Below are positions 56,745 through 62,428 of a DNA stretch of 64,000 nt, one piece after another. Both the position numbers and the translations under genes were made by a program. The stretch is from Candidatus Methanomethylicota archaeon (GTDB lineage: Archaea > Thermoproteota > Methanomethylicia > Culexarchaeales > Culexarchaeaceae), in assembly GCA_020833005.1 (NCBI GenBank), contig JAJHRD010000006.1, positions 1 to 64,000 of the forward strand, in the 5' to 3' direction. Position 1 is the stretch's first letter. The number at the start of each line of letters is the position of its first letter. A model generated the notes under the pieces. It ran no database searches. It saw only the letters and a list, made by a program, of their open reading frames with translations, and was not told where the DNA came from.

Positions 56745-57404
56745 TTAACTAGCTTTTAAGTATTTCTGGCCGTAAATATTACGTAGTGCTTCATATAATT
56801 TCATGGAGATTATTGATGTAGCCATTATCCTCTCCAAGTCTTCTATGCTCTTCCTCATTTCATCGAGCTTCTTCCTCAATCCTGGAACTAGTGATCTAGG
56901 GTACTCTAGTGATTCTAATGCTTGGAATATTTTGTTCATGAGGTTCATTCTAATCTTCGCGGATTCCACATCCCCCTTTATTAGGCTCGTTATAGTCCTC
57001 CTCTTCAATTCTCCAATTAAGTCTGCTAGTCCAAGTATGTATGCTTTTACTGGTACTTTTAGATCGCTTGCCCTAGGTATTCCATGCCCCTCTTCCATTT
57101 CAAGTAGTGCTTTTGCTTCAACGTACTCTTGTAGCATTGTAGTGTAGGCTTCACTTAAATCTTCCATAACCTCTTTGTCTTCTAGTTTTCTCAATTCCCC
57201 CTCAATCATTTTTTCCGCTGAGGTAAGTTTTGTTTTAGCTTCTTCCATCATTTCTTGTTGTATTAATGATATTGCTTCTCCACATAGTCTCTGTGCTTCC
57301 CTAATTTTGAGGTATATCTTCTCCTTTGCTTCATACTTCTCGTAAAGTCCCCTCTTTATCTCTTCAACTTCCTTTAGGAATTCTGTTAAATCCATTTTTA
57401 TCAT
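56745..57404 (-). CDS. Archaeal translin-family protein
   Basis: A 219-residue all-helical protein matching archaeal translin, which forms the barrel-shaped C3PO RNA-degrading complex in single-component form. The distinctive stretch is KAYILGLADLIGELKRRTITSL; other helices follow the translin/TRAX pattern and the acidic GHGIPRASDL region. The catalytic acidic residues (E123-type and partner) are not located with certainty. ATG at 57404 has GGAGGGT 4 bases upstream. It follows a hypothetical gene by 14 bases and is probably translated from the same message. Confidence 0.85.
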   Translation of the reverse strand: MIKMDLTEFLKEVEEIKRGLYEKYEAKEKIYLKIREAQRLCGEAISLIQQEMMEEAKTKLTSAEKMIEGELRKLEDKEVMEDLSEAYTTMLQEYVEAKALLEMEEGHGIPRASDLKVPVKAYILGLADLIGELKRRTITSLIKGDVESAKIRMNLMNKIFQALESLEYPRSLVPGLRKKLDEMRKSIEDLERIMATSIISMKLYEALRNIYGQKYLKAS

Positions 57405-57993: not shown

Positions 57994-59277
57994 TTGGTGA
58001 TTGTATTGAGCGTGCCACCAATAAATTACCCGAAGGACACTATTCTAAGTTTCAGTAAAGATGAGGAGATGTTTAGGGGGGTTGTTAAGGAGTTTTGTGA
58101 TAGGTATATTGCGCCAGTCTGGGTTAAAGTTGATGAGGAAGCTGAGAAAGATCCCATGAATATACCATTAGACCTCTACTCCAAGATGGGTGAGCAAGGC
58201 TTATTTGCAATTCCATGTAGCTCGAAGTTTGGGGGGCAGGATGGAACATACACCATGGCTACAATAGCCACGGAGGAGATAGCTTATGCCGATCCAGCAG
58301 TGGCCATTGCCGTATACACACTCCTAAATAATGGTTGGCCCTTCGCTTTACAGGTTTTTGGCAGTGAGGAGGTTTGTCAAGAGATAATACCGGAGGTGGC
58401 TAAGGGGAGGGCATTCTTTGGAATATCGACAACAGAGCCTCAGGGGGGTTCAGATATTGCTGGAATAAAGACTACGGCTAAGAAGGAGGGGTCAAAGTAC
58501 ATATTCAATGGTGAAAAAGCCTACATTAGCGGTGTTGGAGAGGTTCAGAAACTTCCATGGGGTGGAGGATGGTTCCTAGTGGCTAGGACTGGTGGTCCTG
58601 GTCATAGGGGGTTATCGGCCTTCGCTTTCCTAGCTAGGAGGAATGGCGTGTTAGGTAAAGGGTTTCATCCAACAATATACCATGATATTGGTAGGCACGG
58701 CCTCACCACTGGAGGATTTATATTGGAGAACTTTGAGCTTGACGCCAAATACCTCCTCGGCGAGGAGAATAGGGGGTTCTATTATGTGATGGAGGGGTTC
58801 AACCTAGCTAGAATACTGGTTTCAGCTGCATGTGTTGGTGCAATGAAGTGGCTTTTGGAGAGGGCTGCTGAATGGTTTAAGCAGAGGAAGCTATTTGAGG
58901 GGAGATATATATCATCATTTCAAGGTGTAAGCTTCCCATTCGCCGAACTATATGCAAAGTATGAAGCTGCAAGATACTTCGTTTATAGAGCTGCAAGACT
59001 TGCGGATAAAGTTTATGTGGAGAAGGATCCAACCGTGAATCCAAGGGATTTAAATGTTCCAGTTGCTTTAGCTAAGATGTGGGCTCCACTGGCAGTTGCT
59101 GATTTAGCTGAGGAAGTTATGAAATGGTATGGGGCTTTCGCATATACCAAGGAATGCCCAGTATATAGAGCTTGGCTTGGAACATTCTCATATGCCATAG
59201 GCGCTGAGGGAGCTCAAAACATAATGAAATACATAATAGCCAGAGACCTCCTTGGAAGTGAATATGTTAAGGCTTAA
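57994..59277 (+). CDS. Acyl-CoA dehydrogenase family flavoenzyme
   Basis: A 427-residue flavoprotein desaturating acyl-CoA thioesters. The family signatures are GISTTEPQGGSDIAG, GEKAYISG, RHGLTTGGFILENFEL, NLARILVSAACVGAMKWLLERAAEW and AKMWAPLAVADLAEEVMKWYGAFAYTKECPVYRAWLG. The catalytic base is taken as the Glu of GAEGAQNIMKY, replacing the usual EGTxE. The RAWLG that follows PVYR differs from the usual RDAR, so substrate may be unusual. No ETF genes are in the window. Candidate starts are TTG 57994, GTG 57997 or TTG 58006; start uncertain. The four-gene membrane unit begins 140 bases downstream. Confidence 0.88.
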   Translation: MVIVLSVPPINYPKDTILSFSKDEEMFRGVVKEFCDRYIAPVWVKVDEEAEKDPMNIPLDLYSKMGEQGLFAIPCSSKFGGQDGTYTMATIATEEIAYADPAVAIAVYTLLNNGWPFALQVFGSEEVCQEIIPEVAKGRAFFGISTTEPQGGSDIAGIKTTAKKEGSKYIFNGEKAYISGVGEVQKLPWGGGWFLVARTGGPGHRGLSAFAFLARRNGVLGKGFHPTIYHDIGRHGLTTGGFILENFELDAKYLLGEENRGFYYVMEGFNLARILVSAACVGAMKWLLERAAEWFKQRKLFEGRYISSFQGVSFPFAELYAKYEAARYFVYRAARLADKVYVEKDPTVNPRDLNVPVALAKMWAPLAVADLAEEVMKWYGAFAYTKECPVYRAWLGTFSYAIGAEGAQNIMKYIIARDLLGSEYVKA

Positions 59278-59363
59278 ACCATCATAACCTAAATCATCAT
59301 TTTTCAAATTTTTTAGAGATATTAGTTACAAATATTGCATAAACTTTTTAAATCCTCTACACC

Positions 59364-59371
59364 TATATAGT
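59364..59371 (+). promoter_or_regulatory. TATA box of the four-gene membrane operon
   Basis: TATATAGT lies 54 bases before the TTG start. Counting 25-30 bases downstream puts the transcription start near 59393, giving a leader of about 25 bases with a clear ribosome binding site GGAGGGAT at 59407-59414. This contrasts with the leaderless starts common elsewhere in the window. Confidence 0.5.
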
Positions 59372-59378
59372 ATAGGCT

Positions 59379-59402
59379 CGTTTCCAAAAGATTTGGAAAA
59401 CG
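59379..59402. promoter_or_regulatory. Palindromic site overlapping predicted transcription start
   Basis: Perfect 7-base arms TTCCAAA and TTTGGAA are separated by AGA; extended flanks CGT and AACG continue the symmetry with one inserted A. It spans from about -15 to +8 of the predicted start of the DUF6754-like operon, the place where an archaeal repressor would block initiation. In RNA it could also form a short hairpin in the leader. Confidence 0.45.
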
Positions 59403-59417
59403 TTATGGAGGGATAAA

Positions 59418-60221
59418 TTGTTGAACCCAACATTTGCTGGGCAAATACTATTTGCAGGGCGTGGAAGCAGCCTAGTGATATTAATACTGCTAATAGTGTT
59501 CTTCTATATTGGTTTGAGACTTGCAAAGATGGGTAGACCTCCAAAGATGAGGCGTCTACCAGCAATAGATGCCATTGATGAGGCTGTGGGTAGATGTGCT
59601 GAGATGGGTAAGCCAGCGTTATTCACTCCAGGCCTTACTGGAGGTCTTGCTTCCGAACAGGGGCCTCAAATGGTAGCCTCGATAACCATATTGAGTTATG
59701 TGGCTGAAGGATGCGCAAAGTATGATGTGCCATTAATTGTTGATCACTGTCAGGGCGATGCCATACCATTAATGGATGAAACGCTTAGGCTTGCATATTT
59801 AAAGCATGGGAAGCCTGAAAAGTATGATCCAAAAATGATAAATTACTTCCCAGGTCAATCACCCATGGTTACTGGAATTCTTGGGCATCTTCAACGTTTA
59901 CGTCCAGCAGCATTCTTCATGATTGGAGGATTATACTATGAGTCTGTGGTTATTGGTGAAGCTGCAAACTTCGTTGGAGCCATGACCATTGGTGGAACCG
60001 CAAACACACATCAGCTACCATTCATAATTGCAGTATGCGATTACGTTTTGATAGGGGAGGAAATTTATGCTGCAAGTGCATATATTTCCAAAGATCCGTA
60101 TCAAATAGCGACAATTGCTGGTGAAGATTGGATAAAGTTTGTGTTGATGGCGCTACTGATATTGGGTTTCATACTTGAACCCCTCGGAATTAAGTATATA
60201 AGTGGTTTTCTGAGGTGGTGA
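59418..60221 (+). CDS. Membrane-anchored soluble-domain protein A (DUF6754-like)
   Basis: A 267-residue protein with a hydrophobic helix at about 17-34, a soluble domain at about 45-235 and a C-terminal hydrophobic region at 238-262. The soluble domain has Rossmann-like alternation with glycine-rich turns: PALFTPGLTGGLASEQGPQM, VPLIVDHCQGDAIPLMDETLR, FMIGGLYYESVVIGEAANFVGAM and IGGTANTHQLPF. It resembles, from memory, DUF6754 proteins of archaea and some bacteria; no biochemical role is known to me. TTG start at 59418 with RBS GGAGGGAT. It overlaps the RBS of the next gene; the four genes form one unit. Confidence 0.6.
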   Translation: MLNPTFAGQILFAGRGSSLVILILLIVFFYIGLRLAKMGRPPKMRRLPAIDAIDEAVGRCAEMGKPALFTPGLTGGLASEQGPQMVASITILSYVAEGCAKYDVPLIVDHCQGDAIPLMDETLRLAYLKHGKPEKYDPKMINYFPGQSPMVTGILGHLQRLRPAAFFMIGGLYYESVVIGEAANFVGAMTIGGTANTHQLPFIIAVCDYVLIGEEIYAASAYISKDPYQIATIAGEDWIKFVLMALLILGFILEPLGIKYISGFLRW

Positions 60222-60226
60222 TAAAC

Positions 60227-60892
60227 ATGGGCGCGGTTGCTTTTCTAAGAAGACCTGAAGTGTTTATGTTCATTGCAGGTGTAGTTATGGGGTTGACATT
60301 ATTTGCATACTTCTTCAATGTTCCAACAGTCATAGATCTGGTTACATGGTTCCAAACTTTTGCAGTTCATGTAAGTTTCTTTGCCGTATGGCTTGGTTTC
60401 TTAACGGCAGCTAGAATACATATACATCACATTCAACGTAGAACTCCTGGAATATGGTACTTCAGTATAGTGATGTTTGCAGCATGTCTAATACCATTTA
60501 TAGCTGCATTACCAGAAATAGCTGCTCCCTCAGTTACGAATCCGGTATATCAATGGCCATTCAATTGGGTTTATACACCCCTCGGTGCAGCTTTATATGC
60601 TACTACTGGGTTCTATATATTTTCAGCAGCTTATAGAGCCTTTAGGGCTAGAAGCTTTGAAGCAGCAATACTGCTGGTGTCCGGGTGTCTAGTTATGCTC
60701 GGAAATGCACCGATAGGGGAAGTTATATGGAGTGCAATTCCATATATAAACGATTGGCTTCAGTTAACTGGGCAAATTCCTGGCATGCGTGCACTAAACA
60801 TCACAGCTGCACTTGGAATAATATACTTTGGATTACGAGTTGCCACTGGTGCTGAGAAGAGGGTTATTACCCTTGGAACTGGGGGTGGGTAA
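60227..60892 (+). CDS. Polytopic membrane protein B of the four-gene unit
   Basis: A 221-residue protein with six hydrophobic segments at about 11-30, 41-62, 77-95, 116-137, 144-162 and 188-207. Histidines 48, 65, 67 and 68 (RIHIHHIQ at the end of the second helix) might bind metal or cofactor, although this is inference. A longer frame begins GTG 60215 inside the previous gene, but ATG 60227 is preceded by AGGTGGTGA and gives MGAVAFLRRPEVF. No family recognised. Gene C begins 2 bases after its stop. Confidence 0.6.
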   Translation: MGAVAFLRRPEVFMFIAGVVMGLTLFAYFFNVPTVIDLVTWFQTFAVHVSFFAVWLGFLTAARIHIHHIQRRTPGIWYFSIVMFAACLIPFIAALPEIAAPSVTNPVYQWPFNWVYTPLGAALYATTGFYIFSAAYRAFRARSFEAAILLVSGCLVMLGNAPIGEVIWSAIPYINDWLQLTGQIPGMRALNITAALGIIYFGLRVATGAEKRVITLGTGGG

Positions 60893-60893
60893 A

Positions 60894-61763
60894 ATGGGTG
60901 GAGGACAAACCATTTGGGAGAAAATAGGGGCTGTAGATAGGAGAGTTCTGTATTGGGTGCTATTTTTATCTCTTGCCATACCATACATTAAACCTTTGGG
61001 TTTACCAGTATCCATAGCTGAAACCACATATGCATTGTACAATTTCATAAACACCCTAGGACCCAATGATGTTGTTGTTATGGCAATAGAGTTTGGTGTT
61101 TCTGCATGGCCTGAATGTCTGCCTGGTTTCGTTGCTGTATCTAAGCATCTTGTGCAACGTGGTGTAAAGATAATTTATTGGTGCGTTGGTTATACTGACT
61201 GCGATTTAACTATGGAGGCTGTCATGGCAAGAGTTCCACAACTTAAGGGTCCAGGTCAGCCCGCAGGGCCTGGAGACTATAAGTATGGTGTTGACTGGGT
61301 TTACTTTGGATTCATTGCCGGTGGAGAACCGACCGTGGCTCAATTGGCTGACAACATACGTAATGTACTTAGAACTGATAAGTATGGAACACCAATAGAT
61401 CAAATACCTTTAATGAAGAATGTGAATTCAGCTAAAGATATCAAATTGGTAGTTGATTCAACAACTGGTGATTATGGAGATTATTATCTTAGACAGTGGA
61501 GGATGAGGTATGGAACTGCCGTGGCTGAGATCGGTATAGCCATGAACTACTCAACATTCTTAACATACTATCAAGCAGGTTTAGCTGTGGGTGCACTTAA
61601 GGGCGTTAGAGGTGCAGCTGAATATGAGAAGCTTATTGGCCAACTTGGTGAAGCAACTATAAGCATGGATGCTTTGAACATTTCCCACCTACTAGTAATA
61701 ATGGCTGTAATCTTTGCCAATTTAAGTTATGTAATGACTAAACGTAAAGGAGGTGTGAGGTGA
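60894..61763 (+). CDS. Membrane-anchored soluble-domain protein C of the four-gene unit
   Basis: A 289-residue protein with an N-terminal hydrophobic helix (about 18-38), a soluble domain 40-260 and a C-terminal helix 263-283. The soluble part begins with NDVVVMAIEFGVSAWPECLPG, a strand-helix-strand unit, VKIIYWCVGYTDCDL and ends with GTAVAEIGIAMNYSTFLTYYQAGLAVGAL, a layout like that of protein A, so the two may be distant paralogues. Cys75, 97 and 103 are present. ATG 60894 follows a G-rich stretch in the end of gene B. Its stop overlaps the ATG of gene D. Function unknown. Confidence 0.6.
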   Translation: MGGGQTIWEKIGAVDRRVLYWVLFLSLAIPYIKPLGLPVSIAETTYALYNFINTLGPNDVVVMAIEFGVSAWPECLPGFVAVSKHLVQRGVKIIYWCVGYTDCDLTMEAVMARVPQLKGPGQPAGPGDYKYGVDWVYFGFIAGGEPTVAQLADNIRNVLRTDKYGTPIDQIPLMKNVNSAKDIKLVVDSTTGDYGDYYLRQWRMRYGTAVAEIGIAMNYSTFLTYYQAGLAVGALKGVRGAAEYEKLIGQLGEATISMDALNISHLLVIMAVIFANLSYVMTKRKGGVR

Positions 61764-62404
61764 TGCCGTACCCCTCAACAATTGATGGAATAATTGGAGC
61801 TTGGGTTGGAGCCTTCCTCACACTAGCAGTATATAGTTACATACTTTACAAGGAGACTAGAATTTACCGGCTTGCAGAATATATCTATGTTGGAAGTGCC
61901 TTTGCAGTTTCATTAGTTGTTTCAGCAACACAAATCTACAAACAGATAATAGTGCGTATAGCTAGAGGCGAGTACATATATATCATAGGTGTCATTCTCG
62001 GGTTAATGCTTCTTACATTGCCATTTAAGCGTATACGTTGGATAAGTAGGTATACTGTAATGTTTCTGATGGGTTTAGGTTTCGGAGTTACAATTAGGGG
62101 CGCACTTACGGCAAACATTATAGGTCAAATCAGGGGGTCAATAACTCCACCTGCTGCAACAGCAACTGCATTGGATTGGTTCAATTTTGTATGGATATGT
62201 CTTGGAACCCTTTTAGTGGTATCATACTTTACATTCACGGTTGAACACACTGGATGGTATTTCTACCCAACGAAGCTTGGCAGGTACATATTATTAGTCG
62301 GTCTTGGAACTTACTATGGTAATACCGTCCAATTTAGAATGACAATGCTTGCGGGGAGAGTTCAGTACCTACTACAAGTGTTTAAGATAATTCCATGGCC
62401 ATAA
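61763..62404 (+). CDS. Polytopic membrane protein D of the four-gene unit
   Basis: A 213-residue protein with about six hydrophobic segments (13-29, 41-58, 72-88, 97-117, 140-158 and 175-190). Loops carry basic residues (KETRIYRLAEY, FKRIRWISRY, VEHTGWYFYPTKLGRY). I see no known family or catalytic motif. The ATG at 61763 overlaps the TGA of gene C as TGATG, and AGGAGGTG lies 9-16 bases upstream, which indicates tight translational coupling. It is the last gene before a T8 tract, so it closes the transcription unit. Confidence 0.6.
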   Translation: MPYPSTIDGIIGAWVGAFLTLAVYSYILYKETRIYRLAEYIYVGSAFAVSLVVSATQIYKQIIVRIARGEYIYIIGVILGLMLLTLPFKRIRWISRYTVMFLMGLGFGVTIRGALTANIIGQIRGSITPPAATATALDWFNFVWICLGTLLVVSYFTFTVEHTGWYFYPTKLGRYILLVGLGTYYGNTVQFRMTMLAGRVQYLLQVFKIIPWP

Positions 62405-62420
62405 ACACAAAAATAACAAC

Positions 62421-62428
62421 TTTTTTTT
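62421..62428 (+). terminator. T-tract terminator of the four-gene unit
   Basis: Eight consecutive Ts follow the stop of gene D by 17 bases. Archaeal transcription commonly ends at such U-rich stretches without needing a hairpin. It also precedes the TATA box of comB. Confidence 0.5.

Follow-up and report, generated by a model that had tools for sequence, protein, structure and literature searches.

What does a compact run of four membrane-protein genes do in an archaeon when sequence searches connect it to no named system, and is it a functional unit at all? The question is raised by one end of a 64,000-nucleotide stretch of DNA (the whole of which we call the window), where four open reading frames, A to D, lie intact and open between 59418 and 62404, all in one direction on the forward strand. 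The features of this part of the window are listed here, with 1-based coordinates.

57994 to 59277, forward strand: acyl-CoA dehydrogenase gene (Pfam match) upstream of A, the genomic partner of the window copy of the cassette
59341 to 59353, forward strand: TATA/BRE-like element AAACTTTTTAAAT, a putative promoter on grounds of conservation
59381 to 59399, no strand assigned: 19-bp palindrome TTTCCAAA-AGA-TTTGGAAA in the 5' leader of gene A, a possible operator
59407 to 59413, forward strand: Shine-Dalgarno sequence GGAGGGA of gene A, from sequence
59418 to 60221, forward strand: gene A, TTG start after GGAGGGA; DUF6754 protein, predicted helix, cytosolic alpha/beta domain, helix
60227 to 60892, forward strand: gene B, ATG start; polytopic membrane protein with six predicted transmembrane helices and conserved F-ASAAYRAFRAR and GxER motifs
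60894 to 61763, forward strand: gene C; predicted helix, extracytoplasmic Rossmann-like domain, helix
61763 to 62404, forward strand: gene D, ATG start; polytopic membrane protein with four clear transmembrane helices, probably five or six
62421 to 62428, forward strand: T8 run, a probable archaeal-type terminator, from sequence

The genes are closely packed, with five bases between A and B, a single base between B and C, and an overlap of the C stop and the D start in the form TGATG. The original prediction, made from the letters of the DNA, had described this co-directional layout and its overlap, and had placed an acyl-CoA dehydrogenase gene directly upstream on the same strand; our check of the open reading frames and the sequence finds the same layout, and the Pfam match identifies the upstream gene. 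It had also given the unit a promoter, an operator-like palindrome and a terminator of its own, and here the outcome is mixed. The TATA-like element is conserved, as AAACTTTTTAAA is common to the window and two congeners (G062 and G151), and the less exact TGCTTTTAAA is found in a genome from another family (G210). A T-run downstream of D is likewise present in the two congeners; a hairpin was looked for at the T8 run and none was found, and archaeal terminators can be T-runs without a hairpin. The palindrome fared less well. It has a single match in the window, with 0.09 expected, and is roughly kept as a near-palindrome within the genus, but is absent from the other-family genome; we regard it as a possible operator. 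Its reading as an RNA hairpin was rejected, the stability being no better than that of shuffled sequences.

Protein A matches PF20539 (DUF6754) with E=5.6e-69 and 232.6 bits against a gathering cut-off of 27, which bears out the resemblance proposed earlier; its homologues match far over the cut-off as well. In Pfam, however, DUF6754 is one domain with no function assigned, with no B, C or D, no four-gene order and no link to the partner proteins M and E described below. B, C and D of the window match no Pfam or NCBIfam family above the curated cut-offs, which includes any transporter or channel family for B or D, and three of the four subunits are thus absent from Pfam. Extending the Pfam search to 24 B and 25 D homologues gave scattered weak matches only (best E about 1e-3), as did a larger set of C homologues, and profile searches of the PDB with A, B, C and D returned nothing significant. 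The earlier failure to connect the unit to a known transporter, respiratory or export system is matched by sequence searches of Pfam, NCBIfam and the PDB with all four proteins and by fold searches of the PDB with A and C, none of which names such a system. Within the open-access literature searched, DUF6754/PF20539 does not appear, and searches on the GlmL/MutL proteins and on the hosts brought up nothing about the four-gene system. We also rejected the ideas that A and C are duplicated homologous domains (hhalign probability 1.4%), that B and D are homologues (1.2%), and that the system is of viral origin, viral contigs having no relative.

The expected division into two multi-pass proteins (B, D) and two soluble domains anchored at both ends (A, C) is upheld by hydropathy and charge profiles averaged over 90-98 homologues per gene, with six helices in B, four clear and probably five or six in D, and one helix at each end of A and C. 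In A, the helices carry their positive charges toward the domain (6.5 against 2.8 acidic); in C these charges sit on the termini (4.0 and 3.7), with few beside the domain. By the positive-inside rule, this charge bias puts the domain of A in the cytosol and that of C outside the membrane, and the two proteins would have opposite topologies. Single-chain AlphaFold models of both are confident and of the alpha/beta type (pLDDT 94 and pTM 0.88 for A; 94.7 and 0.91 for C). Foldseek searches of the two models against the PDB gave no match below E=1e-3; the partial matches are to generic Rossmann-like, SIS-like or USP-like folds, and the best TM-scores (about 0.47 for A and 0.53 for C, where a score above 0.5 over the domain would count as a fold match) are normalized by small targets, all with E above 1e-3. 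The soluble part of A is acid-rich and is the most conserved region of the system, with E62, E181, D208, E214, E215, D237 and K240 invariant or nearly so. Conserved polar residues are also present in B (R141, R144 and R192) and in D (R97, R193, R200, E40 and Q123). At a conservation of at least 85%, neither B nor D has a His pair or Cys cluster suited to heme or Fe-S; there is one Cys (Cys207) in A and one His (His265) in C, and no heme or Fe-S ligand set is conserved across A to D. In many bacterial A proteins, the N-terminus is extended by a signal-like segment and what is probably an extracytoplasmic Fn3/Ig-like domain.

An indirect indication that A to D belong together comes from gene order. 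A scan of GTDB genomes with the six A proteins of the host returned more than 500 relatives, and 80 of the loci were retained. Of the 82 A genes behind which the contig continues for 3 kb or more, 76 are followed on the same strand by B, C and D in this order, with median gaps of 16, 3 and 6 bases from A to B, B to C and C to D. The original prediction had proposed a search for this order in other genomes, and had taken scattered homologues as evidence against a unit; the order is retained. The exceptions include a split C gene, loci with insertions or larger gaps, and A genes that stand alone, one of which (L080, 7650-8819) has no B, C or D behind it. Taken together, the sequence data lead us to infer a single membrane complex, of an undescribed family, with A to D as its subunits.

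Relatives of A are found in bacteria such as Bacillota (including Symbiobacterium), Zixibacteria, Poribacteria, Cloacimonadota, WOR-3, Eisenbacteria, Latescibacterota, Fermentibacteria, Planctomycetes, Sumerlaeota, Armatimonadetes and Riflebacteria, and in archaea such as Bathyarchaeota and Methanomethylicota, so that the hosts of the cassette are monoderm, diderm and archaeal. Its presence is patchy, as A exceeds the cut-off in 6 of 300 genomes of the host's phylum. Where it occurs, it can be present in many copies: six ABCD cassettes in the host genome (one truncated where its contig ends), seven A genes apiece in two congeners, and at least 12 full cassettes plus remnants in Ca. Fermentithermobacillus carboniphilus (Bacillota). 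Complete cassettes also occur as tandem or convergent pairs (L053, L118, L083, L092, L054 and L086). In a tree of 116 concatenated cassettes, the archaeal ones form one clade, and within it paralogue groups are common to species and several also to families. Clades shared by archaea and Bacillota and having similar neighbors were not seen in this tree, and since the archaeal cassettes form one clade, any resemblance between the neighbors of archaeal and Bacillota cassettes is convergent or due to chance.

Clustering of the neighboring genes brought out two partner proteins, M and E. M (about 620 aa) is GlmL/MutL-like and matches PF13941 with E=5e-122 in the host. It differs from the known members of that accessory family (NF040745, NF040744 and TIGR01319) in an extra C-terminal part, in its pairing with E, and in scoring under all three NCBIfam cut-offs (209.9 of 475, 210.7 of 600 and 142.9 of 204 bits), the first two of which place it outside the GlmL equivalog. 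PF13941 is a family of the ASKHA-type fold; this suggests nucleotide use, and M is potentially ATP-binding. E (roughly 375 aa) appears to combine a barrel-sandwich-like part with a KOW-like part. It is reminiscent of the barrel-sandwich subunits of the NqrA/RnfC type, but its match to NqrA covers about 55 residues at E=0.029, scoring 13 bits where the cut-off is 321, and A to D match no other Nqr/Rnf subunit. In Bacillota, the E proteins are longer, with the barrel-sandwich-like part seemingly duplicated, and in Symbiobacterium-type loci (L050, L051 and L081) two M paralogues lie around E.

The M and E genes adjoin one another, and in several phyla the pair stands immediately before A or after D. 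In the host, a single M-E pair is found apart from the cassettes, and an M55 D-aminopeptidase gene comes after its E gene. Across genomes, E tracks A closely. Among the 300 genomes of the host's phylum, E occurs in exactly the 6 that have A (Fisher p=1e-12), and among 250 Bacillota genomes it occurs in 18 of the 20 A-positive ones and in one other (p=3e-24). These p-values overstate the evidence, as the genomes were evenly drawn but are related and not independent; the pattern is found in two distant phyla.

The neighborhoods of the copies differ from one another and are retained. Each archaeal paralogue group keeps its own neighbors across genomes, in some cases across families. The window group keeps the order acyl-CoA dehydrogenase-A-B-C-D in both congeners and in the other-family genome (L181), where HdrC and HdrB are also kept, and in another group (C4) a DUF917-type gene and one for a carboxylase subunit are retained. 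Behind the window cassette stand genes for phosphosulfolactate phosphatase and a small membrane protein, then HdrC, HdrB and an HdrA-like gene (L018, 3679-5387, which runs on from the end of the window); the downstream HdrCB arrangement is seen in L018, L181, L170 and L177, including another family. Old paralogues with stable and distinct neighbors suggest different substrates or partners. In Ca. F. carboniphilus, the cassettes lie near three M20 peptidases, amidohydrolases, creatininase, DUF1028 and regulators of the IclR, RpiR and MarR types, and inspection shows an adjoining threonine-degradation pair. Six M20/amidohydrolase genes lie within 3 kb of its cassettes against 1.6 expected from genome-wide family counts (p=0.005), a modest enrichment in one genome that comes partly from one locus. 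By sequence inspection, one archaeal cassette, found in two congeners, adjoins genes of D-aminoacylase-like, creatininase-like and M20/M28-like type; it does not group with the bacterial cassettes in the tree.

The pooled picture is less uniform. The 74 flanking genes from many phyla do not show a single dominant pathway, the leading families (lipoate ligase, dehydroquinate synthase, amidohydrolases) reaching 3-4 each, and many cassettes in other phyla adjoin housekeeping genes. ABC ATPase genes occur in 13 loci at a median distance of 3.6 kb. In several bacterial phyla (L052, L127 and L061), the run M-E-A-B-C-D has glycine-cleavage genes (GcvPA/PB) on one side and a lipoate ligase gene on the other, and M is preceded by genes for a small membrane protein and for a protein of 130-150 aa.

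What, then, might the complex do? Our favored reading, to which we give somewhat less than an even chance, is an undescribed complex most likely devoted to solute transport, with several copies in each cell that differ in substrate. Solutes would cross the membrane by way of B and D, the outside Rossmann-like domain of C would bind or sense the solute, the conserved acid-rich cytosolic domain of A would gate or couple transport, and the shared cytosolic M and E might activate, energize or mature all copies of the cassette. The window copy could then handle a carboxylate or acyl substrate that feeds the acyl-CoA dehydrogenase and the Hdr-like electron-transfer proteins encoded beside it. Paralogue groups with their own retained neighbors fit different substrates, and the hydrolase neighbors, the multiple copies with nearby regulators and the polytopic subunits with their conserved charges favor, as the leading hypothesis, the uptake of small organic compounds, often of the amide type; the catabolic context suggests this but does not establish it. 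In architecture alone, ABC and other multi-subunit importers resemble the system (two polytopic subunits plus one domain outside and one in the cytosol, with copy-specific catabolic neighbors), but A to D have no match to an ABC ATPase, solute-binding-protein or transporter family, and no ABC ATPase is encoded within the conserved unit of A-D plus M-E. Also against transport, no subunit is related to a transporter in sequence, nor A or C in fold, the neighbor enrichment is modest and from one genome, with many cassettes elsewhere near housekeeping genes, and a plain importer does not explain M-E-ABCD between glycine-cleavage genes and lipoate ligase.

The main rival owes its place to the strong conservation of the soluble domain of A, whose invariant or nearly invariant acids and K240 would be less expected in a scaffold than in an active site. 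In this alternative, which we consider unlikely, A and/or C would act catalytically on amides, peptides or acyl compounds in a membrane-bound enzyme or processing complex scaffolded by B and D. It would account for the hydrolase neighbors and for the M55 D-aminopeptidase gene just beyond E in the host, but two polytopic subunits with conserved charges exceed what a scaffold needs, and no fold relative names an activity. The neighbors of the window copy, an acyl-CoA dehydrogenase upstream and Hdr genes downstream that are kept in another family, suggest instead a complex that transfers electrons or translocates ions and is coupled to flavoprotein dehydrogenases, as does the NqrA-like stretch of E, far below the cut-off as it is. 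We judge this decidedly improbable: A to D lack a conserved heme or Fe-S ligand set, redox neighbors are missing at most copies, and cassettes are numerous in Ca. F. carboniphilus, a fermenter described as having no respiratory chain (PMC10215811). The absence of a conserved Cys or His pair in B and D and this reported lack of a respiratory chain in the Bacillota host both support the transport reading. A respiratory complex in the strict sense was rejected, as no cofactor motifs are conserved. It is also improbable that the complex serves cell-envelope assembly, lipids or signaling in a non-catabolic role, with mostly accidental neighbors; the extracytoplasmic extension of many bacterial A proteins and the spread over monoderm, diderm and archaeal hosts would suit such a role, yet a copy number of 1 to 12 or more together with patchy presence would be unusual for envelope assembly, and paralogue-specific neighbors are retained.

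We tentatively propose, as an idea that may well prove wrong, that A-D and M-E together constitute a new class of prokaryotic membrane machine, made of six proteins with several exchangeable membrane cassettes in each cell, in which an ASKHA protein drives substrate-specific units in both bacteria and archaea. An intact multi-phylum membrane complex with up to a dozen copies per genome marks a sizeable gap in the understanding of how archaea and bacteria that live by fermentation deal with their surroundings, and gives the GlmL-like family a possible role outside its known setting. The paralogous copies, the M-E partners and the distribution across phyla go beyond what the original prediction contained, and the system is now defined for testing by its subunits, partner genes, topology, conserved residues and copy-specific neighbors that hint at substrates.

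A few further neighbors deserve mention. Near another cassette (L014, 66-6576), inspection indicates genes for a GcvH-like lipoate-binding protein and fumarate reductase/Tfr-like A and B proteins, and in the same run HdrB, HdrC and HdrA-like genes. ThiD-type kinase genes adjoin a cassette of the archaeon, in convergent orientation and as ThiD-ThiN (L015, 5655-7034), and one of the Bacillota genome, on the same strand and as ThiD-ThiM-ThiE-like (L146, 11410-12321). Finally, the archaeal window itself carries a gene for a translin-family protein (PF01997, E=4e-15) at 56745-57404, on the strand opposite to the cassette.
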